Shown here piece after piece: positions 23,014 to 48,041 of a stretch of DNA of 64,000 nt. How positions within the stretch are numbered: position 1 is the first letter of the stretch; each line of letters begins with the position of its first letter. Where the stretch lies: NCBI RefSeq assembly GCF_004102025.1, contig NZ_CP025228.1, positions 2,604,001 through 2,668,000 on the forward strand, written 5' to 3'. The notes under the pieces are model-generated. The model was not told where the DNA came from. It saw nothing but the letters and a program-made list of their open reading frames with translations, and searched no databases. The translations under genes and the position numbers were made by a program. The stretch comes from Actinomyces qiguomingii (GTDB lineage: Bacteria > Actinomycetota > Actinomycetes > Actinomycetales > Actinomycetaceae).

Positions 23014-23100
23014 GACCGAGTTAAAGACCGAGTTGAGGACCGCCGGCCCAGCAGCCCCGCCGAGATCGGTCGACGTTACCAACGAGATCGGTCGAAATGA
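23014..23100 (+). repeat. 22-bp repeat array A (plus two partial units)
   Basis: Full units start at 23061 and 23083 (CGAGATCGGTCGA core, spacing 22). Two shorter relatives (GACCGAGTT) occur at about 23014-23040 directly after the bcp stop. Orientation is the same as bcp. See the other arrays at 26146, 26450, 37898 and 47976. Confidence 0.9.
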
Positions 23101-23129
23101 CGAAGGAGGCGAGCCCCGGAGCCCCTCCT

Positions 23130-24251
23130 TCACTCGCCCGGATAGATGACTCCGAGCCGACCGCGCACCTCGTCCATGGTCTCCAGCACCGCCAGCGTCT
23201 CGCTCCACGGCATGGTCTCGGACTCGGTTCTGCCCGCGGCCAGGCAGCGAGCCACCTCGGCGGCCTGGAATTGAAAACCACCAGGCAGCGAGGCATCCCA
23301 CTCATAGCGCGGCACTCCCGGCCCCTCCCCCACAACGATCTGCAGGGGCGTGGGCCGGTAGAACCGCTTCTGCACAACCAGTCTGCCGCGGGTACCCACC
23401 ACCTCGGCCCCCGTGTCAGACGCCGCCGCCATGCTCGACGCGGCCACTGCCACCGCGCCCGGATACTCCATGGCTATCGTCTCATCCAGGTCGACGCCGC
23501 CCGAAGACAGCCGCCCGACGGCCGTCAGCGCGCTTGGCACACCCAACAGGGAATGGACGAAGCTAACCGAATACACCCCCAGATCCAGCAGCGCCCCACC
23601 TGCCAGGTCGAGTCGGACCAGACGCTGTACATGCTCCAGCGACTGGAAGTGCTCGGCACGCACGTAGCGCAACTCCCCCAGTGCCCCGCTGCCCGCGAGC
23701 GCTCGCGCCAGCACCTGCCCGGGAAGAAAACGCGTCCACATCGCCTCCATGGCGAAAAGCCCCGCGGCCCGGGCGGCGTCGAAGACCCTGCGCGCCTCGG
23801 CGGCGTTGCGGGCGAAGGACTTCTCCACCAGCACGGGTTTGCCCGCCGTCAGCGCCAAAAGCGCCTGCTCGCAGTGGAAGTTGTGCGGTGTGGCCACGTA
23901 GACGGCGTCCACGTCCGGGTCGTCGACGAGAGCCTCGTAAGAGCCGTGCGCGTGCACCGGTTGACCCTTGCCGGCATCCGGGTGGGCATCAATGAAGGCT
24001 TGTGCCCGGGCGCGGTCGCGGCTGCCGACGGCGACAATCCGCCCCGAGGAGAAGGCGGGCACGTCAGTGGCGAAGGTGGAGGCGATGCCGCCCGCGCCGA
24101 GAATGCCCCAGCACAGAGCGGGCGCGTCCTGCGGCTCGGGGACGGCGGCGGCCAGGTCGAAGGGGGCACCGGCGTCGGCCAGGGCCTGGAGCACAGGAGC
24201 GGGGACCGCGGGGAGCTGGTCACGAGTACGGAAGGAATTGTTTTGCGCCAT
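23130..24251 (-). CDS. Gfo/Idh/MocA-family NAD(P)-dependent oxidoreductase
   Basis: A 373-residue protein. The N-terminal Rossmann domain shows GILGAGGIASTFATDV (about residues 49-64) and AVGSRDRARAQAF. The dinucleotide/substrate segment AVYVATPHNFHCEQALLALTAGKPVLVEKSFARN contains the conserved EK. The C-terminal alpha/beta domain has LDLGVYSVSFVHSLLG, including the usual D-x-G-x-Y/H pattern. The N-terminus is extended by about 45 residues compared with many members. These enzymes oxidise or reduce sugars, inositols or trans-dihydrodiols; the substrate is not evident. It is transcribed alone, convergent with bcp. Confidence 0.88.
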   Translation of the reverse strand: MAQNNSFRTRDQLPAVPAPVLQALADAGAPFDLAAAVPEPQDAPALCWGILGAGGIASTFATDVPAFSSGRIVAVGSRDRARAQAFIDAHPDAGKGQPVHAHGSYEALVDDPDVDAVYVATPHNFHCEQALLALTAGKPVLVEKSFARNAAEARRVFDAARAAGLFAMEAMWTRFLPGQVLARALAGSGALGELRYVRAEHFQSLEHVQRLVRLDLAGGALLDLGVYSVSFVHSLLGVPSALTAVGRLSSGGVDLDETIAMEYPGAVAVAASSMAAASDTGAEVVGTRGRLVVQKRFYRPTPLQIVVGEGPGVPRYEWDASLPGGFQFQAAEVARCLAAGRTESETMPWSETLAVLETMDEVRGRLGVIYPGE

Positions 24252-24453
24252 GTCAAAATCCTAGGTTGCGTCGGCACTCATCGCCATACCTTCGGCCCAA
24301 CGGCACAGCCGGCGGCCCATGCGTCGGCATGACCCGCGCCCCTGCAGCCGCGAGATGCACTCGCCGAGCACTGCTAGGCTGTCCTCCGGCCTCCGGCCGA
24401 ACACATTCGGGCCGACACCTCCTGTGTCAGTCGGAAGTTCGGCCCGGCCACGA

Positions 24454-24535
24454 GCGCGAGTGGCGGAATTGGTAGACGCCCCAGATTTAGGTTCTGGTGC
24501 CTTCGGGCGTGAGGGTTCGAGTCCCTTCTCGCGCA
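24454..24535 (+). tRNA. tRNA-Leu (anticodon TAG)
   Basis: A class II tRNA with acceptor GCGCGAG/CTCGCGC, anticodon stem CCAGA/TCTGG with loop TTTAGGT (TAG), a variable arm (TGCCTTCGGGCG) and T-arm GAGGG-TTCGAGT-CCCTT. CCA is not encoded. Confidence 0.96.
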
Positions 24536-24583
24536 CTGACTGTCAGGGTGGCCCCCTCGCGCGGCCCGGGTAACCTGGGCCGC

Positions 24584-25417
24584 GTGACTGACACCAAGAC
24601 ACGTAAGGACGGCCGCTTCCCCGATCAGCTGCGCCCCGTCTCCATCACCCGTAACTGGCAGGTCAACGGCGAAGGCTCGGTTCTCGTCGAGTTCGGCCGC
24701 ACCCGCGTTCTGTGCGTCGCCTCCTTCGTCGAGGGCGTGCCGCGCTGGCGCAAGGGCGGTGGCGAAGGTTGGGTGACGGCCGAGTATGCGATGCTGCCGC
24801 GGGCGGGCTCCGAGCGCTCCGGGCGCGAATCCGTGCGTGGCAGGGTCGGCGGCCGCACCCACGAGATCTCTCGCCTGATCGGCCGTTCCTTACGCGGGGT
24901 GATCGACGTCGCCGCCCTGGGCGAGAACACGATCACCCTGGACTGTGATGTGCTGCAGGCCGACGGCGGCACCCGCACCGCGGCGGTTACCGGTGCCTAT
25001 GTGGCCCTGGCCGACGCCGTCGCCTGGGGAACGCGTCGCGGTTACGTCAAGCCCCGTGCCGGCAAACGGGTCCTTGCCGACTCGGTCTCGGCGGTGTCCG
25101 TCGGGATTATCGACGGCGTCCCCTGCCTAGATCTGCCCTACGAGGAGGACGTGCGCGCCCAGACCGACATGAATGTGGTCCAGACCGGTGCCGGCGCCTT
25201 CATCGAGGTGCAGGGCACCGCCGAGCATGCCCCCTTCGACCGCGCCGAGCTCGGCGCCCTGCTCGACCTAGCCACCAAGGGCAATGCCGAGCTGGCCGCG
25301 CTTCAGGCTCGCGTCCTGGCCGGTCCGGAGGATGCCCCCTTCACCGTGTCGACCGCCGCTCAGTCCGAACAATCCTCCGCAGGAAACGGCCCGGCAACTG
25401 GCGTCGAGGAGGCCTGA
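24584..25417 (+). CDS. rph: Ribonuclease PH
   Basis: A 277-residue phosphorolytic 3'-to-5' exoribonuclease that trims tRNA 3' ends. Recognisable segments are [15 protein letters not shown] at the start, [50 protein letters not shown] (phosphate-binding arginines), [31 protein letters not shown] and [21 protein letters not shown] at 24584 is chosen because it begins at the family N-terminus; the frame is open upstream into tRNA-Leu. The stop codon overlaps the rdgB start by one base (TGATG), so the two are coupled, a common actinobacterial pair. Confidence 0.95.
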
Positions 25418-26163
25418 TGGGGACCGCTCAGCCCGAGCAGCGCGGCACCGCGACGGTGTCGGCCGATCTTGGAGTGGCAGTGCCCGCAGGTGCCCGGCTG
25501 GTGCTGGCCAGCCACAACCCGGGAAAGCTAGCCGAGCTGCGCGCAATCTTGACACCTCTGGTGGCCGGGCTTACGGCCGAGCAGATCATCTCCTCGGCCG
25601 GGCTCGGCACTCCCGAGCCGACGGAGGACGGGCTGACTTTTGCCGCCAATGCCACCCTCAAGGCACGCGCCCTGGCCCAGGCGACCGGTCTGCCGGCGGT
25701 TGCCGACGACTCCGGGCTGTGCGTGGACGTGCTGGGTGGAGCACCGGGCATATTCTCGGCCCGCTGGTCGGGCCGCCACGGCGACGACGAGGCCAACTTG
25801 CGGCTGCTGCTGGCGCAGCTCGCCGACATCGCCGACCCGCATCGCACGGCACGCTTTACCTGCGCCGCGGTGCTGGTGGTGCCGGGCCGAGCCGGTGAGT
25901 CGGAGTCAGTGACCGTGGTGGAGCGCTCCATGGTTGGTCGGCTACTGCACGCGCCGGTTGGCGCCGGCGGCTTCGGCTACGACCCGATCTTCGTGCCGGT
26001 CCAGGAGGACGCCCCGGGAGGTTCCGGGCGGACGACGGCGCAGATGAGCACGACGGAGAAGAACACCATCTCCCACCGAGGTCAGGCCCTGCGTGCCCTG
26101 GCCCCCGCCCTGCGCGAGCTGCTGTCCCCTTCAATCCCCACCCACCGAGTTCGGTCGAAATAA
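25417..26163 (+). CDS. rdgB: Non-canonical purine NTP pyrophosphatase (RdgB/HAM1)
   Basis: A 248-residue enzyme that hydrolyses dITP and XTP to keep them out of nucleic acids. Motifs are LVLASHNPGKLAELR (about residues 28-42), TEDGLTFAANATLKARAL, VADDSGLCVDVLGGAPGIFSARWSG and GFGYDPIFVP. The first about 27 residues are an extra leader. The last residues RVRSK and the TAA stop are not protein-family sequence: they are read from the first unit of the 22-bp repeat array B (from 26146). Confidence 0.95.
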   Translation: MGTAQPEQRGTATVSADLGVAVPAGARLVLASHNPGKLAELRAILTPLVAGLTAEQIISSAGLGTPEPTEDGLTFAANATLKARALAQATGLPAVADDSGLCVDVLGGAPGIFSARWSGRHGDDEANLRLLLAQLADIADPHRTARFTCAAVLVVPGRAGESESVTVVERSMVGRLLHAPVGAGGFGYDPIFVPVQEDAPGGSGRTTAQMSTTEKNTISHRGQALRALAPALRELLSPSIPTHRVRSK

Positions 26164-26211
26164 CCACCGAGTTCGGTCGAAATAACCACCGAGGTCGGTC
26201 GAAGTAACGGG
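26146..26211 (+). repeat. 22-bp repeat array B, three units
   Basis: Units start at 26146, 26168 and 26190 with core CGAG(T/G)TCGGTCGAA, spacing exactly 22. The first unit encodes the C-terminus and stop of rdgB. It is the mirror partner of array C at 26450-26515. Confidence 0.95.
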
Positions 26212-26285
26212 CCCTTCGTGTGTGGCTGTGGAACCTCGTTCCTGTTGAGTTCCATCAGGCCCCAGCGGAGGAAGAACTGTTGGTG

Positions 26286-26388
26286 CTGGCACGCCAACGC
26301 CGCTATCGTGTCGTCGGCCATGCTGCGGTCCTTGGCACGGGCTTACTTGGGCTGGCAGTGCCTCAAAGGACACTGGTTGGCGTGCCAG
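26286..26388. ncRNA. Strongly folded hairpin between inverted repeat arrays (candidate structured RNA or bidirectional terminator)
   Basis: The outer arms CTGGCACGCCAAC (26286-26298) and GTTGGCGTGCCAG (26376-26388) are perfect 13-bp complements. Inside, GTCCTT (26328-26333) pairs AAGGAC (26366-26371), continuing with GGCAC (26334-26338) and GTGCC (26358-26362) across a 3-nt bulge. A small extra stem GCCG/CGGC lies on the 5' side. No reading frame there looks like protein. It sits midway between arrays B and C in a convergent intergenic region. Whether it is transcribed is unknown. Confidence 0.5.
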
Positions 26389-26449
26389 AACGCCGAGGAG
26401 CCTACGAGAGAGCCACGCCAAATTGTCGAGGATGAGGCTTTGCGCCACT

Positions 26450-26515
26450 TCGACCGAACTCGGCGGTTATATCGACCGAACTCGGCGGTTATATTGACCG
26501 ATCTCGGCGGGATTG
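26450..26515 (-). repeat. 22-bp repeat array C, three units, inverted relative to array B
   Basis: Reverse-complement units at 26450, 26472 and 26494 (TCGACCGAACTCGG core). The unit at 26494 provides the last codons (R-D-R-S-I) and stop of the DUF3054 gene. Confidence 0.95.
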
Positions 26516-27013
26516 GGCGTCCAGACGGCGCTGGACCCCCTTGGGCACCAACGAGTCATGCGCCTTCACGTAGCCGTACAAACTGCGCCAGCCACCGCAG
26601 AACACCACTAAGAACGCGGCCAACATCACCGCGAACGCCCCCGTTCCGGTGCTCGCCCCCGCAGGTGCCCGCCACAGGTACAAACCACTCCACAGGGCCC
26701 AGGTCACCACAATGACTGAAGCGCCGTCCGGCCACCCCACCTCCAGGTGATCGCCGGGACGGCGCACCAGCCACGCGACCGTCCAGGCGATAACGACGGC
26801 GACTGCGCCGCGGACCGCCAGGCCGGGCACCTGGATCAGATCATGGGACGACGCAGCCGCGAAGCAGGCGACCAGCGCCACCGAAACCGTATCGGCCAGC
26901 AGTACCAGCCACCAGCGGGTGCGGCGCCCGCGTGTCCAGGGCCGATCCGGCCCGTCAGGCACTGGCGGCGTGTAGCTGATGCGTCCGGGCTCGTCTCGCT
27001 GCTGTTCCTGCAC
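26489..27013 (-). CDS. DUF3054-like membrane protein
   Basis: A 174-residue protein with four hydrophobic segments: WWLVLLADTVSVALVACFAAAS, GAVAVVIAWTVAWLV, VIVVTWALWSGLYLW and AFAVMLAAFLVVFCGGW. The layout and the ADxxxVxxFAxxxxxSH-like first segment fit DUF3054 membrane proteins of unknown function. An N-terminal cytoplasmic stretch of about 33 residues is Pro/Arg-rich. The last residues RDRSI and the stop come from repeat array C. It begins 4 bases after the stop of the MBL gene, so it is in one operon with MBL and murI. Confidence 0.75.
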   Translation of the reverse strand: MQEQQRDEPGRISYTPPVPDGPDRPWTRGRRTRWWLVLLADTVSVALVACFAAASSHDLIQVPGLAVRGAVAVVIAWTVAWLVRRPGDHLEVGWPDGASVIVVTWALWSGLYLWRAPAGASTGTGAFAVMLAAFLVVFCGGWRSLYGYVKAHDSLVPKGVQRRLDAQSRRDRSI

Positions 27014-27016
27014 TGC

Positions 27017-27817
27017 TCACAGCTCCCAGGAGGCACCGGGGGTGGCAACCGTCAGGGGGCCGCCGTAGACGGCGGCGGCCTCGGCCAGCGGAGCGTCGAC
27101 ATCGGTCCAGGGCTGGATATGAGTGAGCACGAGCCGACCGGCGGGACGGCGTCCGCCCCGGCCGCTGGTGCCGGCCGCAAGCTGCCCGGCACGGCGGCCG
27201 GTCAAGTGGATGCCACGCGTGGTATCACGCCCCTCCAGGAAAGCCGCCTCTGCCAGCAGCAGGTCGACGCCGTCGGCCATTGCCTCAATGCCCTCGCACA
27301 GATCGGTATCGCCGGTGAAGGCCAGGCTGACCCGATCGCCATCGTGTCCGGGACCCTCCACCCGGTAGCCGAAGGCATCCACCGGATGCAAGGCCGGAAA
27401 AGGGGTGATGATCAGCGGACCGACTCGCACCGCCTCCCCCGCCTCCACGACACGGAAGGAGAACTCAGTGGAGTAGGTCTCTCGCGTCGAAGTTCCGTCT
27501 ACCCCGTTGAGACGCGAGAGTAGCTCGCCCGGACCGAGCGTCAACACGGGGTCCAAGCAGCCGGCCGGATTCCACCGGCGGTACACGTGCATGCCCACCA
27601 GGTCAACCATGTGATCGGCGTGACAGTGGGAGATGGCGATCGCGTCCAGTTCGGCCGGATCCAGGTAGCGCAGCAACTGCCCCATGGCGCCGGGACCCAG
27701 GTCGAGCACTACCGACCAGGTACGCCCGGCCACGTCGTCGGCCTGCACCAGGTAGGAGGAGGCGACGGCGTCGGGACCGGACATGGAGCCGGTACAGCCA
27801 ACGATGGTGAGCTTCAT
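27017..27817 (-). CDS. Metallo-beta-lactamase fold hydrolase
   Basis: A 266-residue cytoplasmic MBL-fold protein. The zinc signature is AIAISHCHADHMVDL (H-x-H-x-D-H, about residues 60-72), followed by LAFTGDTDLCEGIEAMADGVDLLLAEAAFLEG and HLTGRRAGQLAA...LVLTHIQPW. It resembles the RNase Z-like/phosphodiesterase branch commonly found next to murI and rph-rdgB in Actinobacteria. The exact substrate is unknown. Its ATG overlaps the murI stop by 4 bases. Confidence 0.87.
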   Translation of the reverse strand: MKLTIVGCTGSMSGPDAVASSYLVQADDVAGRTWSVVLDLGPGAMGQLLRYLDPAELDAIAISHCHADHMVDLVGMHVYRRWNPAGCLDPVLTLGPGELLSRLNGVDGTSTRETYSTEFSFRVVEAGEAVRVGPLIITPFPALHPVDAFGYRVEGPGHDGDRVSLAFTGDTDLCEGIEAMADGVDLLLAEAAFLEGRDTTRGIHLTGRRAGQLAAGTSGRGGRRPAGRLVLTHIQPWTDVDAPLAEAAAVYGGPLTVATPGASWEL

Positions 27818-28743
27818 GAAGGGACCTCGCTCGAATCGGGGATGGGGGCGGGGGCCGGCGTACTGGCGGCGGGGGCCGGGATCCCCGTCTCTTCTGCCGA
27901 AGGGGCTGCCGGATGCACCTCGGCGACGGCGGTTCCCGGCTCGACCCGGTGTACGCGACCGACTTCCGGGCCCAGGAAGCGGCGGGCCAGCACCGAGAAG
28001 GAATCCGGGTCCCCGGTGGAGCGGAATTCGTGGCTGGGCGCCGCTGCCCCGGGGGCACGTAACAGGTCTCTACGGGCAAGTTCGCGGTAGACGTCCTTGG
28101 CGGTCTCCTGACTGGAGGTCACCAGGGTCACGTCCTCTCCCATAACGTATGAGATGGGGCCGGCCAATAGCGGGTAGTGGGTGCAGCCCAGGATGAGGGT
28201 GTCGACGCCGGCCGCCTTGACGGGCGCCAGACTTTCCTCGGCGGTGGCCATGACCTGTGGGCCGGTAGTAGTACCACTCTCAGCCAGTTCGACGAATCGT
28301 GGGCAGGGCTGGGAGAACAGGTTGATGCCGGGTACGGCGGCCAAGGCGTCGGCGTAGGCGTTGGAGTCGACCGTGCCCTGGGTGGCGATCAGTCCTATAC
28401 GTCTGTTACGGGTGACGCGGGCGGCGGCACGGGCCGCCGGGTGAATGACCTCCACCACGGGCACTCCCTTGCCGCGGGTGTAGCGGTTGCGGGCTTCGTG
28501 CACAACCGCCGCTGAGGCCGTGTTGCAGGCGATTACCAGCATCTTGACGCCAGAGTCGACCAGCTCATCCATGACATTCAGGGCCAGACGGCGCACCTCC
28601 TGCACCGGGCGAGGCCCATAAGGGGTGTTGGCGGTGTCACCGATGTAGAGCAACCGCTCCCCCGGCAGCTGGTCGAGGACCGCACGTGCCACGGTCAAGC
28701 CGCCGACGCCGGAGTCGAACATCCCGATGGCCGCATCATTCAC
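27814..28743 (-). CDS. murI: Glutamate racemase
   Basis: About 309 residues from GTG at 28743; the enzyme makes D-glutamate for peptidoglycan. Both catalytic cysteines are visible: LVIACNTASAA and LILGCTHYPLL, as is the N-terminal IGMFDSGVGGLTVARAVLDQLPGE. After the usual end (about residue 270) there is an extra Pro/Ala-rich tail (about 45 residues, PAPAASTPAPAPIPDSS) not needed for catalysis. An alternative ATG at 28773 would overlap the DUF2017 gene; neither start has an ideal ribosome site. Confidence 0.92.
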   Translation of the reverse strand: MNDAAIGMFDSGVGGLTVARAVLDQLPGERLLYIGDTANTPYGPRPVQEVRRLALNVMDELVDSGVKMLVIACNTASAAVVHEARNRYTRGKGVPVVEVIHPAARAAARVTRNRRIGLIATQGTVDSNAYADALAAVPGINLFSQPCPRFVELAESGTTTGPQVMATAEESLAPVKAAGVDTLILGCTHYPLLAGPISYVMGEDVTLVTSSQETAKDVYRELARRDLLRAPGAAAPSHEFRSTGDPDSFSVLARRFLGPEVGRVHRVEPGTAVAEVHPAAPSAEETGIPAPAASTPAPAPIPDSSEVPS

Positions 28744-28753
28744 AGCGCCGAGA

Positions 28754-29431
28754 CTATGCGGACCCCTCCCCATTCAATAGCACGGCCACCAGTGATTCCT
28801 GCCACCAGGACAACATGTCATAGGAAAGGGCCATGGCCCGATTCCAGCGGGCGGCATCCTCCTCGTCGCTCGGGGCCTGCTCCCAGGCCACGGCGTGTAC
28901 CTGCTCGGCCGCCTCGGGAGAGTCGATCCGCAGACGCTCGGCCAGTACAAGGCGCGCGTCGTTGAGGGCGCCCAGCCAACGGTCCTGCCTGCCGGCGGGC
29001 ACAAGGACGGCACCACCGGGCCCGGTGGGCTCAAGTAGTTCGTAAACCACCTCCTCCAGTCGGGACCGCTTATCGGCACGCAGACGGTCGCGGGTCAGTG
29101 CGGCAATCTCGACGGCGACGTCCGGATCCTCGGAGGCATCGGGCAAGAGCACATCCAGCAGTGGCTCCAGGGAGGGTGAGACAACGCGCCGCTCCTGCAC
29201 CGACTCGATCGGTTCGGGGTCGAAATCGAGCGCCGCCAGCACGTCACCGTCCCGAGAACTCTCACCGGGACGAACGGGGGTCTGTCCTCCTGTGGGGGCG
29301 GGCGCGGCGCCGGCTGGGCCCGAGGCGCCGAGCAGGTCGGCGATCTGCTTGAACAGGCCGGCCAGATACTCGCGCTCCCACGGCTCCAGGCTGGAGGCCC
29401 AGCCCTCGGCGTCGGGCCGGAATCCACGCAT
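28754..29431 (-). CDS. DUF2017 family protein
   Basis: A 225-residue protein that begins MRGFRPDAEGWASSLEPWEREYLAGLFKQIADLLG and has the mostly helical body typical of DUF2017. Members are almost always downstream of clpS in Actinobacteria and are suspected partners of Clp-mediated proteolysis, without proof. The start overlaps the clpS stop by one base (TGATG). A Pro/Gly-rich insert at residues 38-60 is likely disordered. Confidence 0.85.
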   Translation of the reverse strand: MRGFRPDAEGWASSLEPWEREYLAGLFKQIADLLGASGPAGAAPAPTGGQTPVRPGESSRDGDVLAALDFDPEPIESVQERRVVSPSLEPLLDVLLPDASEDPDVAVEIAALTRDRLRADKRSRLEEVVYELLEPTGPGGAVLVPAGRQDRWLGALNDARLVLAERLRIDSPEAAEQVHAVAWEQAPSDEEDAARWNRAMALSYDMLSWWQESLVAVLLNGEGSA

Positions 29432-29850: not shown

Positions 29851-29917
29851 ACGCCCAGCCTAGCCGCGTGGGCCGGTGGAGGCGGGGTTGTTTCATCACG
29901 CGTCCTCCTGCGGTAAG

Positions 29918-29937
29918 TTGGCTGTCATGACAGCCAA
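29918..29937. promoter_or_regulatory. Perfect 20-bp palindrome over the pncB start codon (candidate operator)
   Basis: TTGGCTGTCATGACAGCCAA is a perfect palindrome, and its central ATG is the pncB start. It lies in the divergent promoter region of clpS and pncB. A repressor dimer here would block pncB transcription or initiation; NAD-metabolism repressors of the NrtR or NiaR type are candidates, but their motifs could not be checked. Confidence 0.6.
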
Positions 29938-31321: not shown

Positions 31322-31408
31322 GCCGCAGGCCCGCATCGAATATCCTCAGCTACACGCGACCACCGCTTACGGTTTCACCCGCGGCCATGACACAGACCAC
31401 TACATGTC

Positions 31409-31804: not shown

Positions 31805-31895
31805 CACCCGGTCCTGACCGGGCAAGCCACCGCCGCGCCCGCCCCCGCTGACGTGCGGTCGGCAGCCCCGCATCGGCGTCGGCGAGCAGAAACGT

Positions 31896-37033: not shown

Positions 37034-37058
<25 letters not shown>
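35328..37058 (-). CDS. ABC-2-like multispanning permease
   Basis: A 576-residue membrane protein with roughly a dozen hydrophobic segments, for example AAIGLLLGTAGAVSLLAPLAAGAAAL, GLALLAPALTWAAAG, LAQIVVLVMIIALLAGMIGANL and LGVLAIVAGCVPLIAPLIVIAI. A cytoplasmic loop of about 60 residues lies mid-protein (TRRHSRAYRVREVAGGDDG). Its start lies inside the 3' end of the ABC ATPase gene (25-base overlap), so the pair forms an ABC exporter. The substrate is unknown. Confidence 0.8.
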
Positions 37059-37843
<785 letters not shown>

Positions 37844-37897
37844 GGCTTGAAGCTATCACGCGTTACCTTGTTGGTGATCCCGGGCGGGACACCGCGA

Positions 37898-37931
37898 CGA
37901 CCGAACTCGCACGTAACTTCGACCGAACTCG
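37898..37931 (-). repeat. 22-bp repeat array D, two units
   Basis: Two reverse-complement cores CGACCGAACTCG at 37898 and 37920, spacing 22. They lie downstream of hup in the hup-sense orientation, between the hup terminator-like hairpin and the ABC ATPase gene. Confidence 0.85.
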
Positions 37932-37992: not shown

Positions 37993-38007
37993 GTGAACTA
38001 GGGATCG

Positions 38008-38033: not shown

Positions 38034-38057
38034 ACGATCCAGGCGAGCCTTAAGGGC

Positions 38058-38342
38058 TCACTTGCCGGAGGCGGCCTTCTTCAGGGCGGACCCGGCGGTC
38101 AGCTTCACGCCATGTCCGGCCGGAATCTGAATCTCCTCGCCGGTGCGGGGGTTGCGGCCGGTACGAGCGGCGCGCTCGACGCGCTCGACACTCATCAGAC
38201 CCGTGATCTTGACAGCCTCGCCGTTGGCGACGTTCTCAACGAGGACGTCCTGGAAGGCGCCGAGGAAGGCATCGGCGTCGGTCTTGGTCAGGCCGGCCTT
38301 CTCAGCGATGGCGGCGATGAGCTCGGTGCGGTTGATGGACAT
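38058..38342 (-). CDS. hup: HU family DNA-binding protein
   Basis: A 94-residue nucleoid protein: MSINRTELIAAIAEKAGLT at the N-terminus, dimerisation helices, and the DNA-binding arm ERAARTGRNPRTGEEIQIPAGH with the conserved RxGRNPxTG loop and intercalating Pro. It lacks the long Lys-rich tail of mycobacterial HU, so it is of the short type. It bends DNA non-specifically and is normally highly expressed; two hairpins follow it. Confidence 0.95.
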   Translation of the reverse strand: MSINRTELIAAIAEKAGLTKTDADAFLGAFQDVLVENVANGEAVKITGLMSVERVERAARTGRNPRTGEEIQIPAGHGVKLTAGSALKKAASGK

Positions 38343-39230: not shown

Positions 39231-39279
39231 GGGTGGTGTCTCCTTGTTGCGGTTGTGGATCATGGCGAGGATGTCCCTG

Positions 39280-40302: not shown

Positions 40303-40303
40303 C

Positions 40304-41221: not shown

Positions 41222-41267
41222 GTGAACAGTTCCTTGGGGAGGAGTCGTGGTCTAGATGCGAGGGCCG

Positions 41268-42092
41268 TCAGGCCTGAAGCAGAGAGGGCACGGCGCCTAG
41301 GAGGGTGCGCGTGTACTCCTGCTGGGGATGGGCGAAGATCTCAGCGGTCGTGTTCAGCTCCAGGATCTTCCCGAAGTACATGACCGCGATGGAGTCGGAG
41401 ACGTAGCGGACCGTATTGATGTCATGGCTGATGAACACCAGGCCCAGACCGAGTGCGGCCTTGAGGTCCTGCAAAAGGTTCAGGACCTGGGCTCGCACGG
41501 ACACGTCCAGGGCGGAGGTGGGCTCGTCGGCAACGATGATGTCCGGGTCCAGGGCCAGCGCCCGGGCGATGGCCACCCGCTGGCGCTGGCCGCCGGAGAT
41601 CTGGCGGGGCAGCACGTCCAGGGCGCTGGGCGGCAAACCCACTAGGTGCAGCAGATCACGGACCTTGGCCTCACGCTCACGGGGCGTGCCGATGCCGTGG
41701 ACGTTGAGGGGGTCGATAAGCGTGTCGTGCACAATCATCCGCGGATTCAGGGCGGTGGCCGGGTCCTGGAAGACGACGGACACCGAGCGCCCCAGGGCGC
41801 GCCGGTCGGCGGCGGAGTGCCCGAGTCGGCGGCCCTTGAAGAAGACCTCACCGCGGGTGGGCGGCTGCAGTCCGGTCATGACGCGGGCGGTGGTGGACTT
41901 CCCACAGCCGGACTCACCCACCAGCCCCAGTGTCTGACCGCGCATGACCTTCAAGGACACGTCGTTGACGGCGTGTACCGTGTCGGGCCGGAAGAGCTTG
42001 CCGGTGCGCGACTTGTGGATCACATGGGCATGGCGCAGTTCGACTACCGGGTCGGTCTCTGGGTTCCAGTCGGTGTACTTGTCGGTGGGCAT
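41268..42092 (-). CDS. ABC transporter ATPase of the oligopeptide/sialic acid type (DppF-like)
   Basis: A 274-residue ATPase: Walker A GESGCGKSTTARVMTG, signature ISGGQRQRVAIARALA, Walker B DIIVADEPTSALDVSVRAQ. The Dpp/Opp-type C-terminal segment follows the H-loop (DSIAVMYFGKILELNTTAEIFAHPQQEYTRTLLGAVP). ATG overlaps the stop of the fused permease-ATPase gene by one base. With the fused gene it provides the second nucleotide-binding subunit. SatABCD-type sialic-acid importers belong to this family; assignment here is from context. Confidence 0.9.
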   Translation of the reverse strand: MPTDKYTDWNPETDPVVELRHAHVIHKSRTGKLFRPDTVHAVNDVSLKVMRGQTLGLVGESGCGKSTTARVMTGLQPPTRGEVFFKGRRLGHSAADRRALGRSVSVVFQDPATALNPRMIVHDTLIDPLNVHGIGTPREREAKVRDLLHLVGLPPSALDVLPRQISGGQRQRVAIARALALDPDIIVADEPTSALDVSVRAQVLNLLQDLKAALGLGLVFISHDINTVRYVSDSIAVMYFGKILELNTTAEIFAHPQQEYTRTLLGAVPSLLQA

Positions 42093-44236
42093 CAGTGGGC
42101 CTCCTGGGCGAGGATCGCCTCGAGCTCGGGCGTGATGGCGTAGTAGTGCTCGGCGGCGCCGGACACCGGCCTGAGCACCGGGCGGGTGTGCAGGCCGACG
42201 TCGGGGTGGGACGAGCGCGGTGCGAAGCGGTCGCCGGATACGAATTCCTGCGGGCTGGGCACGGTGCCGCGCACCTGGTGCAGCCGTTTGGAGCCGGCCT
42301 CGATGGACAGCACCGCTCCGAGCAGTCCGCGGGTGTACTCGTGGACGGGGTTGGTGAGCAGCTCCGCGGTGGCGGCCTGCTCGACCACCTGTCCGGCGTA
42401 CATGACGGTGATGCGGTGGGCGACCTTGGCCACCAGGGCCAGGTCGTGGCTGACGAACACCATGGCGAAGCCGAGCTTGTCGCGCAGCTGGTTGAGCAGG
42501 TCGATGACCTGCTTCTGGACGGTGACGTCCAGGGCGGTGGTGGGTTCGTCGGCGATGACCAGGCTGGGGTCGCGTGTGAGAGCCATGGCGATCAGTACGC
42601 GCTGACGCTGCCCGCCAGACAGCTCGTGCGGGTAGCTCTTAAGTGTGCGCACCGGGTCCAGGCCCACCAGCTCAAGCAGCTCCTCGGCGCTGCGGGTGCC
42701 GCCGCGGGAGGTGAGCTGCTTCATCTGGGAGCGGATGAGCATGGAGGGGTTCAGGGAGGACAGGGCGTCCTGGTAGATCATGGCCATCTCATGTCCACGC
42801 AGAGCGTTGTGTTCCTTGGGGCTCAGTTCCAGCAGTTCGCGCCCCTGGAAGCGGATCCTCCCGGTTATACGGGCGCCTGGCGGCAGCAGGCCCATCACCG
42901 CCATGGAGGTTATCGACTTGCCGCAGCCGGACTCACCGACCAGTCCCATGGTCTCGCCGGGACGCACAGCGAAGGACACGCCGTCGACGATGTTGACGTC
43001 CCCATGCTGGGCGGGGAAGGCGATCGAGAGGTCCTCCACCTCCAGCACGGGTTCCGCATCCGGGGTGGGATAGACCAAGCGATCACCGCGGGCAAGTTCG
43101 GCTTCGCGCAGGGCACTCAGGCGCTGAGCCAGCGGCACCTCCTCGGCGGCGGGGGCGACAACACCGGTCAGGGCGCTCTTCTGGCCCCCGGGGGTGGCGT
43201 CTGCGGCGTCGTCGGCGTTGTTCCGCACGGCGTGGTCGGCCTCCTGCCAGGCCTGCTGGGTCTGCATGGCCTCCTCGTCGGCCTCGACGTCCACCTGCGC
43301 GCGGATGCGCGGGGCGGCCATGGCGTCGGTCAGCCCCTCGGACAGGATGTTCAGGCACAAGGTGGTGATTAGGATCATCAGCCCGGGGAAGAAGGTCGGC
43401 CACCAGTGACCGGACAGCAGCAGGGCCTTGCCCTCGGAGAGCATATTGCCCCAGGTGGGGGTGTTGACGGCCTTGATGCCTGCGCCGATGAATGACAGCG
43501 AGGCCTCGAAGACGATGGCGTCGGCCACCAGGACGGTGGCGTAGACCATGATCGGGGCGACGCAGTTACGCACCACGTGCTTTGCCAGGATCCACGGCAC
43601 TCGGGCCCCCATCACCTTGGAGGCGGCCACGTAGTCCTCACCGAACTGGGCGAGAATATTGGCGCGCACTACCCGGGTGAGCTGCGGGGTGTAGACGACT
43701 GCGGTGGCAATGATGATCACCGCCACCATTGGCAATCCGGAGGCGGACATGGCCAGCACCAGCACGGCGGCGAGCGCGATGCCGGGGAAGGACATCACCA
43801 CGTCCAGCAAGCGCATGACCACCTCGCCGATCCACTTGCGGCTGGTGGCGGCCACGGCGCCGAGCACGGAGGCCAACGCCAGGGCGATGCCGGTGGCGCT
43901 CAGCCCGACCACCAGCGATACACGGGCGCCGTATACGGCGCGGGAGAAGATGTCTCGCCCGGTGGCGTCGGTGCCGAAGAGGTGTTGCAGCGAGGGGGCG
44001 ACCGCGGGATCGGAGGAGACCACGTCGCCGATTCCCTCCACGTGGGTGACGATCTCCGATGAGGCAAGGCCGGTGGCTCCCGGGTTATAAGGCGCCACTA
44101 AGGGCGCGAAGATTGCCATCAGGGCGATTGCCGACAGGACGAGCACGGCGATCTTGGAGCCGAGCGGCAGCCGCCGCCAGCCCTGGAAGCGCAGGCCGGG
44201 GGCGGAGACCTTGTTCAGTGTGCGACGGTGGGGCAT
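42092..44236 (-). CDS. Fused ABC permease-ATPase (DppC-DppD fusion), probable sialic-acid importer
   Basis: A 714-residue fusion. Residues about 1-310 are a DppC-type permease (segments IAVLVLSAIALMAIFAPLVAPY, GLSATGIALALASVLGAVA, the EAA loop near AASKVMGARVPWILAKHVVRN). A charged, Ala-rich linker (about 310-390) leads to a complete DppD-type ATPase (Walker A GESGCGKSITSMA, signature LSGGQRQRVLIAMAL, Walker B LVIADEPTTALDV). These are usually separate genes. The reading frame is uninterrupted and the C-terminal Opp-type helix is present (NPVHEYTRGLLGAVLSIEAG). It overlaps its neighbours by one base on both sides. Confidence 0.92.
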   Translation of the reverse strand: MPHRRTLNKVSAPGLRFQGWRRLPLGSKIAVLVLSAIALMAIFAPLVAPYNPGATGLASSEIVTHVEGIGDVVSSDPAVAPSLQHLFGTDATGRDIFSRAVYGARVSLVVGLSATGIALALASVLGAVAATSRKWIGEVVMRLLDVVMSFPGIALAAVLVLAMSASGLPMVAVIIIATAVVYTPQLTRVVRANILAQFGEDYVAASKVMGARVPWILAKHVVRNCVAPIMVYATVLVADAIVFEASLSFIGAGIKAVNTPTWGNMLSEGKALLLSGHWWPTFFPGLMILITTLCLNILSEGLTDAMAAPRIRAQVDVEADEEAMQTQQAWQEADHAVRNNADDAADATPGGQKSALTGVVAPAAEEVPLAQRLSALREAELARGDRLVYPTPDAEPVLEVEDLSIAFPAQHGDVNIVDGVSFAVRPGETMGLVGESGCGKSITSMAVMGLLPPGARITGRIRFQGRELLELSPKEHNALRGHEMAMIYQDALSSLNPSMLIRSQMKQLTSRGGTRSAEELLELVGLDPVRTLKSYPHELSGGQRQRVLIAMALTRDPSLVIADEPTTALDVTVQKQVIDLLNQLRDKLGFAMVFVSHDLALVAKVAHRITVMYAGQVVEQAATAELLTNPVHEYTRGLLGAVLSIEAGSKRLHQVRGTVPSPQEFVSGDRFAPRSSHPDVGLHTRPVLRPVSGAAEHYYAITPELEAILAQEAH

Positions 44237-45201
44237 CAGACGCTCCTGATCCTCGGGTTGACCAGCACATAGAGCATGTCAACGATGATGTTGATGATGA
44301 TGAAGGCCAGCGCCACGGTGATGGACACGCCCTGGACGATGTTGACGTCGTTGCGGGTGATGCCCTGGAAGATCAGCTGGCCCATGCCCTGGATGTTGAA
44401 GATCATCTCGATGACGACGGCGCCGCCCATGGCGTATCCGAGCCGCAGCCCCAACACCGTCAGCGGAGTGATCAGGGCGTTGCGCAGCACGTTTCGGGCC
44501 ACGACGACGTGCTTGGGAATGCCAGCGCCGATGGCGGTGCGCACGTAGTCGCGGTCGAGCTCCTCGACCATGGCGGTGCGCACCACGCGGGTGAGGGTGC
44601 CGGTGTTGGGCACCGCCACTGCCAGGGCGGGCAGGAATACCTGCCGCACGTAGGCTCCGGGGTCGTCACCGAAGGACGTCCACTGCGTGACCACCGAGGG
44701 GAAGGTACCGGTGGCGCCGGGGATATCGCCAAACCACTGGATCAGCAGCAGGGCCAGCCAGAAGGACGGAGTGGCCAGGCACAGGATGGAGATGACCCGG
44801 ATGACCTGGTCGGGCCAGGCGTCCCGGTACAGGGCCGCGATCACACCGAGGACGGTGGCCGCGACAACGGCGACGAAGATGCCGATGAAGGTCAACTGCA
44901 GGGTGATGGGGAAGGCCTGGGCGACCATGTCGCTGATCTTCACACCGGTGAAGGTCGTGCCCAGGTCACCGTGAGCCAGGCCCACCAGGTAGTCCCAGAA
45001 GCGTTGCAGCAGCGGGTCGTTGAGATGGTGGGCTTCGCGGTACTGCTCAAGGGCGTCAGCCGAGGCGGCCTCTCCCAGCGCCAGGCGCGCGGGATCCGCC
45101 GAGGAGAATGACATGACGACGAAGACGAGCAGCGTCACGCCCAACACCATGATCGGCAGCGCCACCAGGCGCCTTCCGATCAGGCGGAGGAGGTTGGACA
45201 C
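44236..45201 (-). CDS. ABC transporter permease, DppB type
   Basis: A 321-residue membrane subunit with six predicted helices. It begins VSNLLRLIGRRLVALPIMVLGVTLLVFVVMSF and has the EAA-like loop DYVRTAIGAGIPKHVVVARNVLRNALITPL typical of DppB/OppB. GTG at 45201 is chosen because AAGGAG lies 7 bases upstream; a longer frame exists without a ribosome site. It forms the transmembrane heterodimer with the N-terminal half of the fused protein. Confidence 0.9.
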   Translation of the reverse strand: MSNLLRLIGRRLVALPIMVLGVTLLVFVVMSFSSADPARLALGEAASADALEQYREAHHLNDPLLQRFWDYLVGLAHGDLGTTFTGVKISDMVAQAFPITLQLTFIGIFVAVVAATVLGVIAALYRDAWPDQVIRVISILCLATPSFWLALLLIQWFGDIPGATGTFPSVVTQWTSFGDDPGAYVRQVFLPALAVAVPNTGTLTRVVRTAMVEELDRDYVRTAIGAGIPKHVVVARNVLRNALITPLTVLGLRLGYAMGGAVVIEMIFNIQGMGQLIFQGITRNDVNIVQGVSITVALAFIIINIIVDMLYVLVNPRIRSV

Positions 45202-45304
45202 TGATGTGCTCCTTTGCTGTGGTTTCGGGTTCGGCCGTTTCGGTGCAGTGGGTTGACCGGGCGCCTTCGGGTCGGCTGCCGTGTCGACCCAAGACAATCA
45301 TCGG

Positions 45305-45315
45305 TTGTCTGATGT
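45305..45315. promoter_or_regulatory. Candidate regulator site upstream of the permease gene (TTGTCTGATGT)
   Basis: This 11-mer matches the one at 47090-47100 except for one transition. A partial direct repeat GTCTGATGTC follows. Both sites lie in the sialic-acid operon and fit most of the FadR-family half-consensus TNGTNNNACNA. Confidence 0.4.
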
Positions 45316-45351
45316 CTGATGTCAAGTGCCTCGCAAGACACCTGAACGACG

Positions 45352-45390
45352 GTGCGCGGCGCCGCGGCCATGTGCCACGGCGCCGCGCAC
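45352..45390 (-). promoter_or_regulatory. 13-bp GC-rich stem-loop between binding-protein and permease genes
   Basis: Arms GTGCGCGGCGCCG (45352-45364) and CGGCGCCGCGCAC (45378-45390) are perfectly complementary with a 13-nt loop and no T-run. Such hairpins after a solute-binding-protein gene often protect its mRNA and give it a higher level than the membrane subunits. Confidence 0.65.
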
Positions 45391-45437
45391 TCGCGTCAGC
45401 AGCGACCACCGCCGCCGCATTCAGGAGGCGGTCCGCC

Positions 45438-47063
45438 TCACTCCGCCTTCGTACCGACGTCGACGAAGGACAGACCGGTCAGCGCGATCGGCTGGAATCC
45501 GACCAGCTTCTCGGAATCGTAGGCGGTCGGCGTCTTGCGGTGGAAGATCGGATAGAGCGGCACATCGGCGGCGATCATGTCGAAGATCTCCTGCCACTTG
45601 GCCACCTGGGCGTCACCGTCCAATTGCACCGCCTCATCCAGCGCGGCCTGAATGGCGGTGTAGGACTCCGTGCCCTTCCAGTGCAGACGGGTCTCGGTCC
45701 AGGTGTCTCCCGAGTACCACCAACGCATGAGCAGGTCGGCGTCGTCACCGAAGACGGAGGGGTCGCCGGGGGCGATCACCACATCCCAGTCGCCCTGATC
45801 GGAGTCGATGAAGGAGTAGACGTCCGCAGACTTCTTCTCGTCGTAGTTGACCTTTACTCCCAGGGCCTCAAGGTTCTCGCGGATGATCGGGCGCACCGAG
45901 GAGAACCAGCCGTGGTCCGAGCACAGCAGGTTGATGCTGGTCACGCCCGCCTCGGCCAGGAGGGACTTAGCCTTGTCGGCATCATAGGTGTAGACGGTGG
46001 CGGCCTGCTTGTAGGCGGGGTGGTCCTCCTGGACGAAGCAGGTGGCCGGAGTCGCCAGCGTGCCCATGCCGGTATCACAGATCTTGGCGTAGTCAAGGGC
46101 GTACATGATCGCCTGACGCGCCTTGACATCGGAGAACCTGGCGTTGTTGAACATCGCGAACAGCAGGGAGAAGCCCTGCTCGGCCGAGACCGCAATCGGT
46201 TCCTGCATGGTGGCCAGGTTCGCCACAGGTACGGCGTCAATGGCCTGCACCGTGCCGGAGGTGATCGCATTGGTGCGCGTGGTGTCGTCGGGCAGGATCT
46301 GCCAGGTCATGGACTCGGCCAGGGCCGGGTGCGGGCCGTTGTAGTTGTCATTACGCTCAAAAACGATGGTCTGGGAGGCGGCACCGTTGTCGGTCATCAC
46401 ATAGGGGCCCGAGCCGACGGGATTCATATCGAAAGCGGCGGCGTCGGCTTCCACGGCGGCCTTCGGGACGATCTTGACCACGCTTAGGCGCTCGGCGACC
46501 AGGGAGTAGGGATGCTTGGTCTTGACAGTGACGGTGGCTTCATCCTTCTTCTCCACCGCGTCCAGGAAGGTGAGGAACTGGGCGTACAGCGAACTGTTCG
46601 CCGGGTCCAGTACGCGCTCGAAGGAGAACACGACGTCGTCGGCGGTCACTGCGGTGCCGTCAGAGAATTTGGCACCGTCTCGCAGCGCGACCTCATAGGT
46701 GGTGTCATCGACCTTCTTCGGCAGTTCGGCACCGAGAGCGGCATAGCACTCACGGCTGGCCGGGTGGAGCTCGGTCAGCCCCTCCAGCGTGTGCCAGTTG
46801 GCGGCCACGGTAAGAGCCGCCGTGGTGGTCATCGGATCGTAGCCGTTGGTGCCCAACTCGTAGGAGATGCCGGCCGTGATGACGCCATCTGCGTTCGAGG
46901 CGGCGGCCACGGCGGACGGATCATTTGCCGCCGTGGTGGACGAACCGGAGGAGTTCGAGCCGCCGCAGGCAGCAAGAGCGGCGGCCAGGCCGGCGGCTGC
47001 GCTCATGGTAGAAGTTAGTCGGATGAAACCGCGGCGGGATGCACGGGGAGATGAGAACGACAT
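45438..47063 (-). CDS. Extracellular solute-binding lipoprotein, family 5 (probable sialic-acid binding)
   Basis: A 541-residue lipoprotein of the SBP_bac_5 (Opp/Dpp) family. The signal has an RR pair followed by a hydrophobic stretch and the lipobox LAACGGS (Cys near residue 33). Domain marks are GTNGYDPMTTTAALTVAANWHTLEGL, YEVALRDGAKFSDGTAVTADDVVFSFERVLDP and LFAMFNNARFSDVKARQAIMYALDY. AGGAG before ATG at 47063 sets the start. It is promoter-proximal in the sialic-acid operon and separated from the permease by 236 bases carrying a strong hairpin. Confidence 0.9.
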   Translation of the reverse strand: MSFSSPRASRRGFIRLTSTMSAAAGLAAALAACGGSNSSGSSTTAANDPSAVAAASNADGVITAGISYELGTNGYDPMTTTAALTVAANWHTLEGLTELHPASRECYAALGAELPKKVDDTTYEVALRDGAKFSDGTAVTADDVVFSFERVLDPANSSLYAQFLTFLDAVEKKDEATVTVKTKHPYSLVAERLSVVKIVPKAAVEADAAAFDMNPVGSGPYVMTDNGAASQTIVFERNDNYNGPHPALAESMTWQILPDDTTRTNAITSGTVQAIDAVPVANLATMQEPIAVSAEQGFSLLFAMFNNARFSDVKARQAIMYALDYAKICDTGMGTLATPATCFVQEDHPAYKQAATVYTYDADKAKSLLAEAGVTSINLLCSDHGWFSSVRPIIRENLEALGVKVNYDEKKSADVYSFIDSDQGDWDVVIAPGDPSVFGDDADLLMRWWYSGDTWTETRLHWKGTESYTAIQAALDEAVQLDGDAQVAKWQEIFDMIAADVPLYPIFHRKTPTAYDSEKLVGFQPIALTGLSFVDVGTKAE

Positions 47064-47089
47064 TGAGGTCTCCTGAAGTCGGACGTCTG

Positions 47090-47100
47090 TTGTCTGACGT
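47090..47100. promoter_or_regulatory. Candidate FadR-type operator in the nan divergent promoter region
   Basis: TTGTCTGACGT, 26 bases upstream of the binding-protein ATG, agrees with TNGTNNNACNA at five of six informative positions. Upstream, TTGATC and TACAGT spaced by about 18 bases could be the -35 and -10. The site would sit near the transcription start, as expected for repression by the divergent regulator. Confidence 0.5.
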
Positions 47101-47259
47101 TGGTAGTATGACTGTAGCATCTCATAGGACATCTGATCAATCCCCGGACGGTTTGTGGATTATGTGTAACGATTGCCAGGGGCCCATCCCCCGGCCCCCT
47201 GGCAGAGCAGACACATGCAAGCAGAACCCCGGAACCCAAGCTCAAGAGGAACGATCACC

Positions 47260-47994
47260 GTGGTGGACATGAAGCGAGGCACCTACGCCTCCACAAGCGG
47301 ACCGACGACGCAGGCCTCCAACGCAATGAACGCCATCAAGGACTACATCCTCCAGTCCCACCTTCAACCCGGCGACCCGCTGCCGACCGAGTCGCAGCTG
47401 TGCGAGACCCTGGAGGTGTCCCGCTCCTCCGTGCGGGAGGCGGTGCGCACCCTGGCGGCCCTGGACATCGTGGAGGTGCGCCACGGCCATGGCATGTTCG
47501 TAGGGCAGGTCTCCATGCGGCCCATGGTCGAGTCCCTCGTCTTCCGCGGCCTGCTCAAACCCGGAGACGACTACCGCAGCCTGCGCGAGGTGGTGGAGGT
47601 GCGCCGCACCCTCGACTCCGCCCTGGCGGAGTCGGTGGTCGAGACGTGGCGGGGCCGGGAAGACAGCGAGATCGACGCAGTGGTGGATGAGATGGAGACC
47701 CTGGCTGAGCACGGCGAGACCTTCACCGACCAGGACCGCAGCTTCCACGACATGCTGTTGGCGCGGGTACCGAATCAGCTCTTCGCGCATCTGATGGAGG
47801 CCTTTTGGGCCGTACACACCCTGACGGTTCCCATGCTCGACGCCCCGCATCCGGAGGACATCATCAAGACCGCCAACGCGCATCGGGCGATGTTGCAGGC
47901 CGCACGCGTGGGCGACGTAAGGGCCTACCGCGAGGCGGTAGTGACCCATTACACGCCCCTCATGAACGCCCTCCGCCAAGATCGGTCGATATAG
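47260..47994 (+). CDS. GntR-family regulator, FadR subfamily (probable sialic-acid repressor)
   Basis: About 244 residues from GTG at 47260 (AGAGGA upstream; ATG at 47269 is an alternative). The N-terminal winged helix reads LPTESQLCETLEVSRSSVREAVRTLAALDIVEVRHGHGMFV. The C-terminal FCD ligand domain is seen in LREVVEVRRTLDSALAE, DQDRSFHDMLL (metal ligands D and H) and TANAHRAMLQAARVGDVRAYREAVVTHY. It is divergent from the sialic-acid operon and probably controls it in response to sialic acid or ManNAc-6-P. The last residues DRSI and the TAG stop come from repeat array E. Confidence 0.87.
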   Translation: MVDMKRGTYASTSGPTTQASNAMNAIKDYILQSHLQPGDPLPTESQLCETLEVSRSSVREAVRTLAALDIVEVRHGHGMFVGQVSMRPMVESLVFRGLLKPGDDYRSLREVVEVRRTLDSALAESVVETWRGREDSEIDAVVDEMETLAEHGETFTDQDRSFHDMLLARVPNQLFAHLMEAFWAVHTLTVPMLDAPHPEDIIKTANAHRAMLQAARVGDVRAYREAVVTHYTPLMNALRQDRSI

Positions 47995-48041
47995 CCACCG
48001 AGATCGGTCGACGTTACCACCGAGATCGGTCGACGTTACGT
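47976..48041 (+). repeat. 22-bp repeat array E, three units
   Basis: Cores (A/C)GATCGGTCGA at about 47978, 48000 and 48022, spacing 22. The first supplies the FadR-type gene's last codons and stop. The last, read on the other strand (CGTAAC), supplies the TAA stop of the convergent esterase at 48036-48038. Confidence 0.95.

Follow-up and report, generated by a model that had tools for sequence, protein, structure and literature searches.

Repetitive extragenic palindromic (REP) elements are short extragenic stem-loops that occur in many copies near gene 3′ ends in convergent and codirectional regions; as described in PMC3733652, they sometimes supply a TAG stop codon, contain G-T pairs in their stems, and form some clusters that are tandemly reiterated. 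Ribosome stalling is reported for REP elements that lie no more than 15 nt from a stop codon (PMC12306157). In another described system, the hairpin-cluster intrinsic terminators, several hairpins lie less than 15 nt apart and the poly-U tract is dispensable; confirmed cases are nearly all within 80 nt of the stop codon, according to PMC8355165. Here we analyze a family of 22-bp tandem repeats that resembles the REP elements in the features listed for them from PMC3733652. The repeats were found in the window, a stretch of 64,000 nucleotides from Actinomyces qiguomingii (contig NZ_CP025228.1, positions 2,604,001 to 2,668,000), and throughout the same genome, which is a single contig of 3,988,549 bp (G000 in the following; other genomes are labeled likewise). 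We interpret the arrays as REP-like clusters of small RNA hairpins that act at transcript 3′ ends, probably in termination, a function that we infer. No title or abstract on this repeat was found in the open-licence PubMed Central literature.

Repeat unit and spacing

The core CGAGWTCGGTCGA, with at most two mismatches allowed, has 18 matches in the window compared to 5.05 ± 2.40 in shuffled sequences, and none of 100 shuffles reached 18. Tandem Repeats Finder (TRF) reports a period of 22 in three of the window arrays (26142-26208, 26450-26510 and 47979-48039). In the whole genome, exact CGAGWTCGGTCGA cores were found 141 times on the forward and 149 times on the reverse strand, and the reversed control was never found. 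Among 102 internal units of G000 with at most two core mismatches, the first ten positions are near-fixed (C G A G N T C G G T), position 11 is C in 75, A in 17 and T in 10, and positions 14-17 and 20-22 vary as words. An earlier note on the window had described a full dyad ACCGA-nn-TCGGT in each unit and a fixed linker nnTAACCAC. Neither description holds: the right half is nearly invariant while the left half varies (R then Y), and the linker contains AATAA, TATAA, CGTTA, TATGA and other words.

Neighboring cores in G000, counted up to 60 bp apart with no spacing imposed, are separated by 22 bp in 183 cases and by 23 bp in three, a count from own-genome loci many of which were chosen because repeats are present there. 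The corresponding spacings in genome G063 are 22 bp (87 cases), 44 bp (4) and 29 bp (2). In an independent lag analysis, 22 is among the top lags in G000 (second, behind a 61-bp repeat) and in G063, where it is inflated by masked N. The top lag is 23 in G029; it is also 23 in two stretches of G066, but there the top 9-mers derive from a CCCAGACCGGCAC repeat. The pitch of 23 bp is found in some species, and 22 and 23 bp are mixed inside one array. Strict cores mostly belong to arrays (80 of 82 in the sampled part of G000), the commonest array size being 2-3 units in G000 and 2-4 in G063. On the sense strand, the leader before the first unit has a C fraction of 0.49 and a G fraction of 0.18 in G000, compared to 0.35 and 0.33 at its other 3′ ends; the respective leader values are 0.53 and 0.18 in G029 and 0.42 and 0.30 in G063. 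Past the last unit the sense strand is G-rich.

Location and orientation of the arrays

The own-genome sample comprised 41 stretches (864 kb, 21.7% of the genome, window included). Genes were called with a simple codon-score caller, so that genes may have been missed beside some of the "antisense" or distant arrays, and tRNA genes were included with protein genes in the class counts. Of the 53 arrays in this sample, which extrapolate to about 240 genome-wide, 23 lie in convergent and 4 in divergent regions, codirectional regions contain 19 in sense and 6 in antisense, and 1 array is intragenic, the other 52 being intergenic. Convergent regions are preferred over divergent ones (p = 0.00076 against the share of intergenic bases), and sense over antisense in codirectional regions (p = 0.015). 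Random orientation and location, the outcome that the earlier note had set against its own proposal, were not seen in this genome, and its statement that the arrays always follow the sense of the upstream gene is true of the five in the window; in the genome sample, an opposite-strand gene lies upstream of 10 of the 52 intergenic arrays.

The arrays are positioned close to gene ends. The start is at most 60 nt from the 3′ end of the same-strand upstream gene in 29 of 42 arrays and at most 100 nt in 31; 12 of these 42 sense arrays start at most 15 nt past the 3′ end and 5 overlap it. When arrays were permuted within their gaps (protein genes only), 13.2 ± 2.1 of 38 were within 60 nt compared to 25 observed, the maximum of 5000 permutations being 21. 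One of the 42 arrays (G000:C1 near 14171, locus L071) starts 4 nt past a tRNA-Ala gene, hence the arrays are not tied to translation stops alone. The 19 codirectional sense arrays stop at least 46 nt short of the next gene, so none of them is in a tight operon gap. Neighboring arrays, defined in G000 and G063 as lying within 1.5 kb with no gene between, face each other in 11 of 12 pairs; one pair has the same direction and none point apart.

In G063 (20 stretches, 400 kb, with masked N runs inside), 13 arrays are convergent and none divergent (p = 7.8e-5), one is intragenic, and the codirectional arrays, 10 sense and 8 antisense, do not follow the earlier claim on orientation. Permutation gave 6.9 ± 1.7 of 24 arrays within 60 nt, with a maximum of 14, compared to 16 observed. 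The samples from G029 (6 arrays) and G030 (5 arrays, 2 of them intragenic) are small.

Arrays in the window

The five arrays that the earlier note had listed in the window were recovered, and by our gene calls all of them are 3′ of a gene in that gene's sense, four in convergent regions, where it had placed most of them. Their upstream genes, all on the same strand as the array, are a PrxQ/Bcp-like gene, an rdgB-like gene, an uncharacterized open reading frame (ORF), an HU-family gene and a GntR-family regulator, and in three of the five cases the stop codon of the upstream gene is inside the first unit. The first array (23061-23095, plus strand) consists of two 22-bp units with CGAGATCGGTCGA cores at 23061 and 23083. 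It starts 48 nt past the stop codon of the PrxQ/Bcp-like gene (22533-23012), with a convergent Gfo/Idh/MocA gene beyond. Its former boundaries, 23014-23100, were incorrect: the region 23007-23042 (plus strand) is a distinct 12-bp tandem repeat AGTTAAGGACCG, detected by TRF, that contains no 22-bp unit.

The second array (26146-26202, plus strand, three units) includes in its first unit the TAA stop codon (26161-26163) of the rdgB-like gene 25417-26163. It is faced by the third array (26450-26506, minus strand, three units), whose first unit contains the stop of the minus-strand ORF 26489-27013; this ORF has no Pfam or NCBIfam match. Together with the intervening DNA (26100-26550), the two arrays form one long inverted repeat that, as RNA, is predicted to fold as a single long hairpin (z = -8.25, with none of 100 shuffles as low). 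The fourth array (37897-37931, minus strand, two units) follows the HU-family gene 38058-38342 at a distance of 126 nt and precedes a same-strand ABC gene (37034-37843), the only codirectional case. The fifth array (47977-48033, plus strand) has three units, and the first, which is degenerate (CAAG...), contains the stop codon of the GntR-family gene (47260-47994); the end of the convergent gene is at 48036.

Distribution and conservation

The arrays are a large, genus-restricted family. The strict GAGNTCGGT pair pattern was found in 15 of 213 family genomes, and the relaxed pair of CGAGNYCGG cores at 22 or 23 bp in 59. Within the genus, 19 of 49 genomes have 24-576 phased relaxed pairs, compared to 0-4 in the 164 genomes of other genera, where the reversed control reaches 3. 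A wider spread in the phylum was rejected, as the three-unit pattern occurs in 2 of 396 genomes, one of them G000 and the other with two overlapping matches and a different linker. Array-poor members of the genus contain other intergenic tandem repeats, with lags of 27 and 35 in G071 (L188-L193) and of 15 and 34 in G072 (L194-L198).

The linker type is species-specific, for example AATAACCAC in G000, GTTCCGCGT in G063 and G027, ACATCCTGACCT in G030, GAAAATAGGAG in G032, and linkers of 23-bp units in G029 (AGAAGTTACGTGC) and G019 (ACTAATGGCACCT). Orthologous gene ends were compared by eye in 30 genomes with loci, out of 46 and 49 having a match. Between the convergent bcp and Gfo genes, units were found in four of 30 genomes: G000, G065 (degenerate), G030 (one intact, one degenerate) and G036. 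In five of the six closest relatives (G066, G011, G068, G013 and G029), these genes are about 20 bp apart with no array. The 3′ end of rdgB has three units in G000, four in G066, none in G011, three in G068, one in G013, two in G029 and three in G065, by eye and including units in which a single core base differs (one in G066, two in G065); the arrays in these six of seven close species differ in linker and pitch (22 or 23). Outside this clade, the rdgB end has units of its own linker type in G027, two CGAGACCGG units at 22 bp in G035, and an array on the other strand in G063; others, such as G070 and G007, have ordinary strong hairpins. At a LacI-family gene, whose stop codon is within the array in all three species, there are seven units in G000, three of the 23-bp kind in G013, and two 23-bp units with the CGAGACCGG core in G066. 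These comparisons show that arrays are kept at some ends and gained or lost at others, and that the core is mostly retained despite rapid change in unit number and linker. Array presence needs four changes on an RdgB tree and six on a Bcp tree, each of 30 genomes, so that one origin without loss is unsupported.

Three protein families were examined as candidate co-distributed factors, and none of them follows the arrays. A Y1 transposase of the REP-associated tyrosine transposase (RAYT) type was found in none of 23 genomes of the genus (11 of the 19 array-rich and 12 array-poor) and in 5 of 14 control genomes, for which reason membership in the REP/RAYT system was rejected. Rho is present in 48 of the 49 genomes, the miss being the 82%-complete G011, and the double-stranded RNA-binding domain has one match in each of the 49; neither tracks the arrays.

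Potential RNA structure

Base changes across species favor a sense-strand RNA hairpin with an AGNY tetraloop. Pairing was analyzed in 667 unique unit windows from 20 genomes, collected with a search pattern that fixes C/T1, G2, C7, G8 and G9 and therefore imposes the inner pairs and the 3′ side of pair (-1,9). When position 10 is U, position -2 is a purine in 510 of 590 windows (G in 275, A in 235); when it is G, position -2 is C in 34 of 42; and when it is C (n = 35), position -2 is G in 15 and A in 17. Pair (-4,12) is paired in 445 of the 667 windows compared to 330 ± 10 after shuffling, and to 403.6 ± 7.5 after shuffling within genomes, where none of 400 shuffles reached the observed value. 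For pair (-2,10), 559 windows are paired compared to 509.8 ± 5.5 in the overall shuffle. The hairpin register is specific, as the three outer pairs give 1592 paired cells and sliding the partner leaves at most 917. A subset of 147 windows, drawn from 18 genomes with no more than 9 from each, has a paired fraction of 84.5% compared to 79.8 ± 0.8 and a covariation of 0.264 compared to 0.189 ± 0.011, with neither reached in 500 shuffles, although relatedness can give such a result; counts of both-side-changed pairs and of pair types in these 147 windows show no excess over shuffles. Over pairs (-2,10) and (-4,12) there are 363 G.U and 55 A.C cells, and this excess points to the sense RNA. Isolated 16-mers slightly favor the sense strand in 19 of 20 genomes. 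A second hairpin inside the linker was rejected, since pairs 9-19 and 10-18 are paired in none of 94 G063-type units.

Possible function and alternative explanations

A site of action at the 3′ ends of transcripts is suggested by the place and orientation of the arrays, by the gap of at least 46 nt to the next codirectional gene and by the hairpin pattern. We propose that each 22- or 23-nt unit would form one small sense-strand RNA hairpin, (N R Y) CG [AGNY] CGG (U N G), in which a 4-bp stem with a tetraloop is extended by one outer pair beyond a mismatch. Between two and ten of these hairpins would follow in series where a transcription unit ends, usually a short way past the stop codon and a leader rich in C. 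By themselves, or through a bound factor that recognizes the conserved core, they could end transcription or set the 3′ boundary, and convergent and codirectional neighbors would thereby be insulated. Local duplication would make the arrays grow, shrink and homogenize, so that linkers drift together within a species and the core is kept. The sequences themselves show where the arrays lie and how they are oriented, their pitch and conserved core, the pairing pattern across species and the turnover at orthologous ends; formation of the hairpin, its action as RNA, duplication as the driver of turnover, and termination in preference to stabilization are deduced from these. That a string of small RNA hairpins ends transcription or fixes the transcript 3′ boundary has, in our estimate, a probability of about 0.47. 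A more novel version, in which the arrays are RNA sites where a dedicated putative factor of the genus recognizes the string of CG[AGNY]CGG hairpins and terminates or processes the transcript, appears improbable to us; if true, it would be a third route of 3′-end formation besides U-tract terminators and Rho, with tandem copy number setting site strength and linkers free to drift by species.

Several observations weigh against termination by RNA hairpins. U-tract terminators are found at 1 of 27 array ends compared to 55 of 297 array-free ends in G000, which is suggestive only (p = 0.061), and the difference is not significant in G063 (1 of 16 compared to 21 of 174, p = 0.7) or G029 (1 of 5 compared to 7 of 81, p = 0.39). 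Strong hairpins (at most -20 kcal/mol) are not clearly rarer at array ends than at other ends, with frequencies of 0.47 and 0.69 in convergent regions (rank test p = 0.098) and 0.58 and 0.62 in codirectional ones (p = 0.74); the idea that array ends lack other hairpins was rejected, as the difference is not significant. Between the HU-family stop codon and the fourth window array, an ordinary-looking GC-rich terminator hairpin can be seen by eye. The codirectional sense bias is absent in G063 (p = 0.81), and 30 of the 49 genus genomes have just 0-7 pairs of the CGAGNYCGG core. With the core fixed by the search pattern, only pairs (-2,10) and (-4,12) are informative, and of 400 within-genome shuffles, 40 reached the value for the former. 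Since U and G predominate among the 3′ letters of these pairs, G.U is expected to exceed A.C to some degree. Neither own-type nor G063-type units, taken by themselves, contain a pair with covariation above chance, so much of the pairing signal is between species and could be inflated by relatedness. Single hairpins are weak (mean -0.7 to -4.5 kcal/mol per genome), short arrays fold no better than shuffles (z from -0.4 to -2.0), and the antisense strand folds at lower energy than the sense strand in three of three arrays examined.

Much of this evidence can be read in other ways. At the mRNA 3′ end, the hairpin string with or without a protein might block 3′-to-5′ exonucleases or slow the ribosome when it reaches the stop codon; effects of this kind have been proposed for REP elements, and no termination would be involved. 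The location and RNA evidence are the same for this explanation as for termination, tandem copies are the rule, and the arrays that begin within 15 nt of a gene end or overlap it would be suitably placed to act on ribosomes; the convergent preference and the codirectional gap fit termination or insulation better, however, and the single hairpins are very weak; we consider this explanation unlikely. A general role as a three-frame stop-codon cassette was rejected: a stop is present at positions 16-18 in 132 of 186 own units but in none of 87 G063 units. The arrays might instead act as DNA, with a protein that binds the core at a phasing of about two helical turns and either stops RNA polymerase or organizes the chromosome. 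The near-invariant core with its dyad, the 22-bp pitch and the orientation relative to genes would suit such a site, as would the weak pairing signal within species and an antisense strand that folds no worse. The A/G and C/T variation in the left half-site, with G slightly exceeding A at position -2 opposite U10, suits RNA wobble rather than a DNA palindrome, and the pitch is 23 bp in some species and mixed in one array. There is also no strand bias relative to the replication fork in the 53 own-genome arrays (30 with and 23 against, p = 0.41; origin placed at dnaA, position 583, and terminus assumed to lie at 1.8-2.2 Mb), which led us to reject a replication-oriented or segregation site of the Ter or FtsK-orienting polar sequence (KOPS) type. 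The nucleoid, segregation or iteron role proposed in the earlier note is disfavored by this lack of fork bias, by the link to transcript ends and by the pair changes across species, and we regard a DNA site as distinctly unlikely.

The remaining explanation is a selfish or neutral repeat: the arrays would be terminal or other fragments of non-autonomous mobile elements and would accumulate where the damage is smallest. Some arrays belong to larger repeat mosaics; one such stretch in G000, about 0.8 kb long (contig positions 14171-14995), has 116-bp inverted repeats near its ends, 93% identical and including an array. Facing array pairs fit a mobile-element origin and convergent gene ends alike. 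The patchy presence, with its repeated changes on both gene trees, and the empty bcp site in most close relatives would also be expected of mobile pieces. Against this stand the orthologous rdgB arrays with kept cores, the codirectional sense bias in G000, the lack of a Y1 transposase in the 23 genomes searched, and the rarity of the repeat in viral contigs, where just three single matches were found; a phage origin was rejected on the same matches, plasmid and phage record collections being outside that search. A selfish origin is in our opinion rather unlikely.

The repeats mark many gene ends with a fixed core and countable units, and 19 species serve as natural replicates, which would make 3′-end formation directly testable. 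By our scan, just 55 of the 297 array-free 3′ ends of G000 have a U-tract terminator.

Other repeats and features

The absence of unique spacers, as the earlier note had pointed out, separates the arrays from clustered regularly interspaced short palindromic repeats (CRISPR); their 13-14-nt linkers recur within and between arrays. A CRISPR-like array is present elsewhere in the window (16103-16868), with a repeat of about 37 nt, GTCAGGAAGCACCTCGCACCTCCAGGTGCATTGAGAC, at a pitch of 72-73 bp, and a related stretch was found in locus L026. A 61-bp unit repeated 2.5 times at 59773-59924 of the window is 100% identical by TRF, and hence is not a spacer-bearing CRISPR. Intergenic DNA of G000, for example at contig positions 14171-14995 and 3004573-3006060, contains more tandem families of about 16-20 bp with cores TTGGACC, CTACTACGCC and GACGGTTCG, as well as a GTGTCCAGATTCGGCACGAAC module in inverted arrangement; some of the families have inverted copies that face one another. 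Transfer-messenger RNA with the tag peptide ADNTRTDFALAA is encoded at 61030-61399 of the window (minus strand).

Comparison with known repeat systems

Plasmid iterons are direct repeats of about 22 bp with helical phasing that mark a replication origin; the arrays are alike in repeat type and length, but are spread over many gene ends. Mycobacterial interspersed repetitive units (MIRUs) are tandem direct repeats that follow the sense of the gene and can overlap its stop codon; they are several times longer and lie inside operons, unlike the arrays, which have units of 22-23 bp and stay at least 46 nt from the next codirectional gene.

REP elements are among the closest known systems. Like these, the arrays are extragenic, present in many copies, located near 3′ ends and rarer in divergent regions. 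The REP-type element suggested in the earlier note agrees with our data in that the repeats are extragenic and near 3′ ends in convergent or codirectional regions, sometimes supply the stop codon, and number in the hundreds. The GTAG- and CGTC-tagged REP superfamilies carry a tag beside the stem, as described in PMC3733652, and the arrays have no constant tag; GTAG at positions 9-12 is possible only in the minority of units with A at position 11 (17 of 102) and would lie partly in the proposed stem. The GTAG superfamily also has a Y1 (RAYT-type) transposase, in contrast to the 23 array-genus genomes examined. The term "actino" is absent from the main text of PMC3733652. With the arrays, the REP-like repeats would gain a class that shows concerted evolution of its linkers and for which the search for a RAYT transposase was negative. 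Work on REP elements makes stabilization or translational effects of the arrays possible (PMC3733652, PMC12306157).

Hairpin-cluster terminators are another of the closest known systems. The 22-23 pitch of the arrays, with proposed hairpins of 12-16 nt, agrees with the described hairpin spacing, and 31 of 42 arrays are within 100 nt of the gene end. The minimum given in PMC8355165 is a stem of 4 and a loop of 5, compared to a stem of 4 plus an outer pair and a loop of 4 in the array units. As far as that paper describes them, the clustered hairpins are apparently not copies of one repeat, whereas the arrays reuse one conserved core genome-wide. The arrays further differ from the terminators of PMC8355165 in their fixed pitch, 4-nt loop and weak stems. 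By analogy, the published hairpin clusters make termination by the arrays plausible (PMC8355165).

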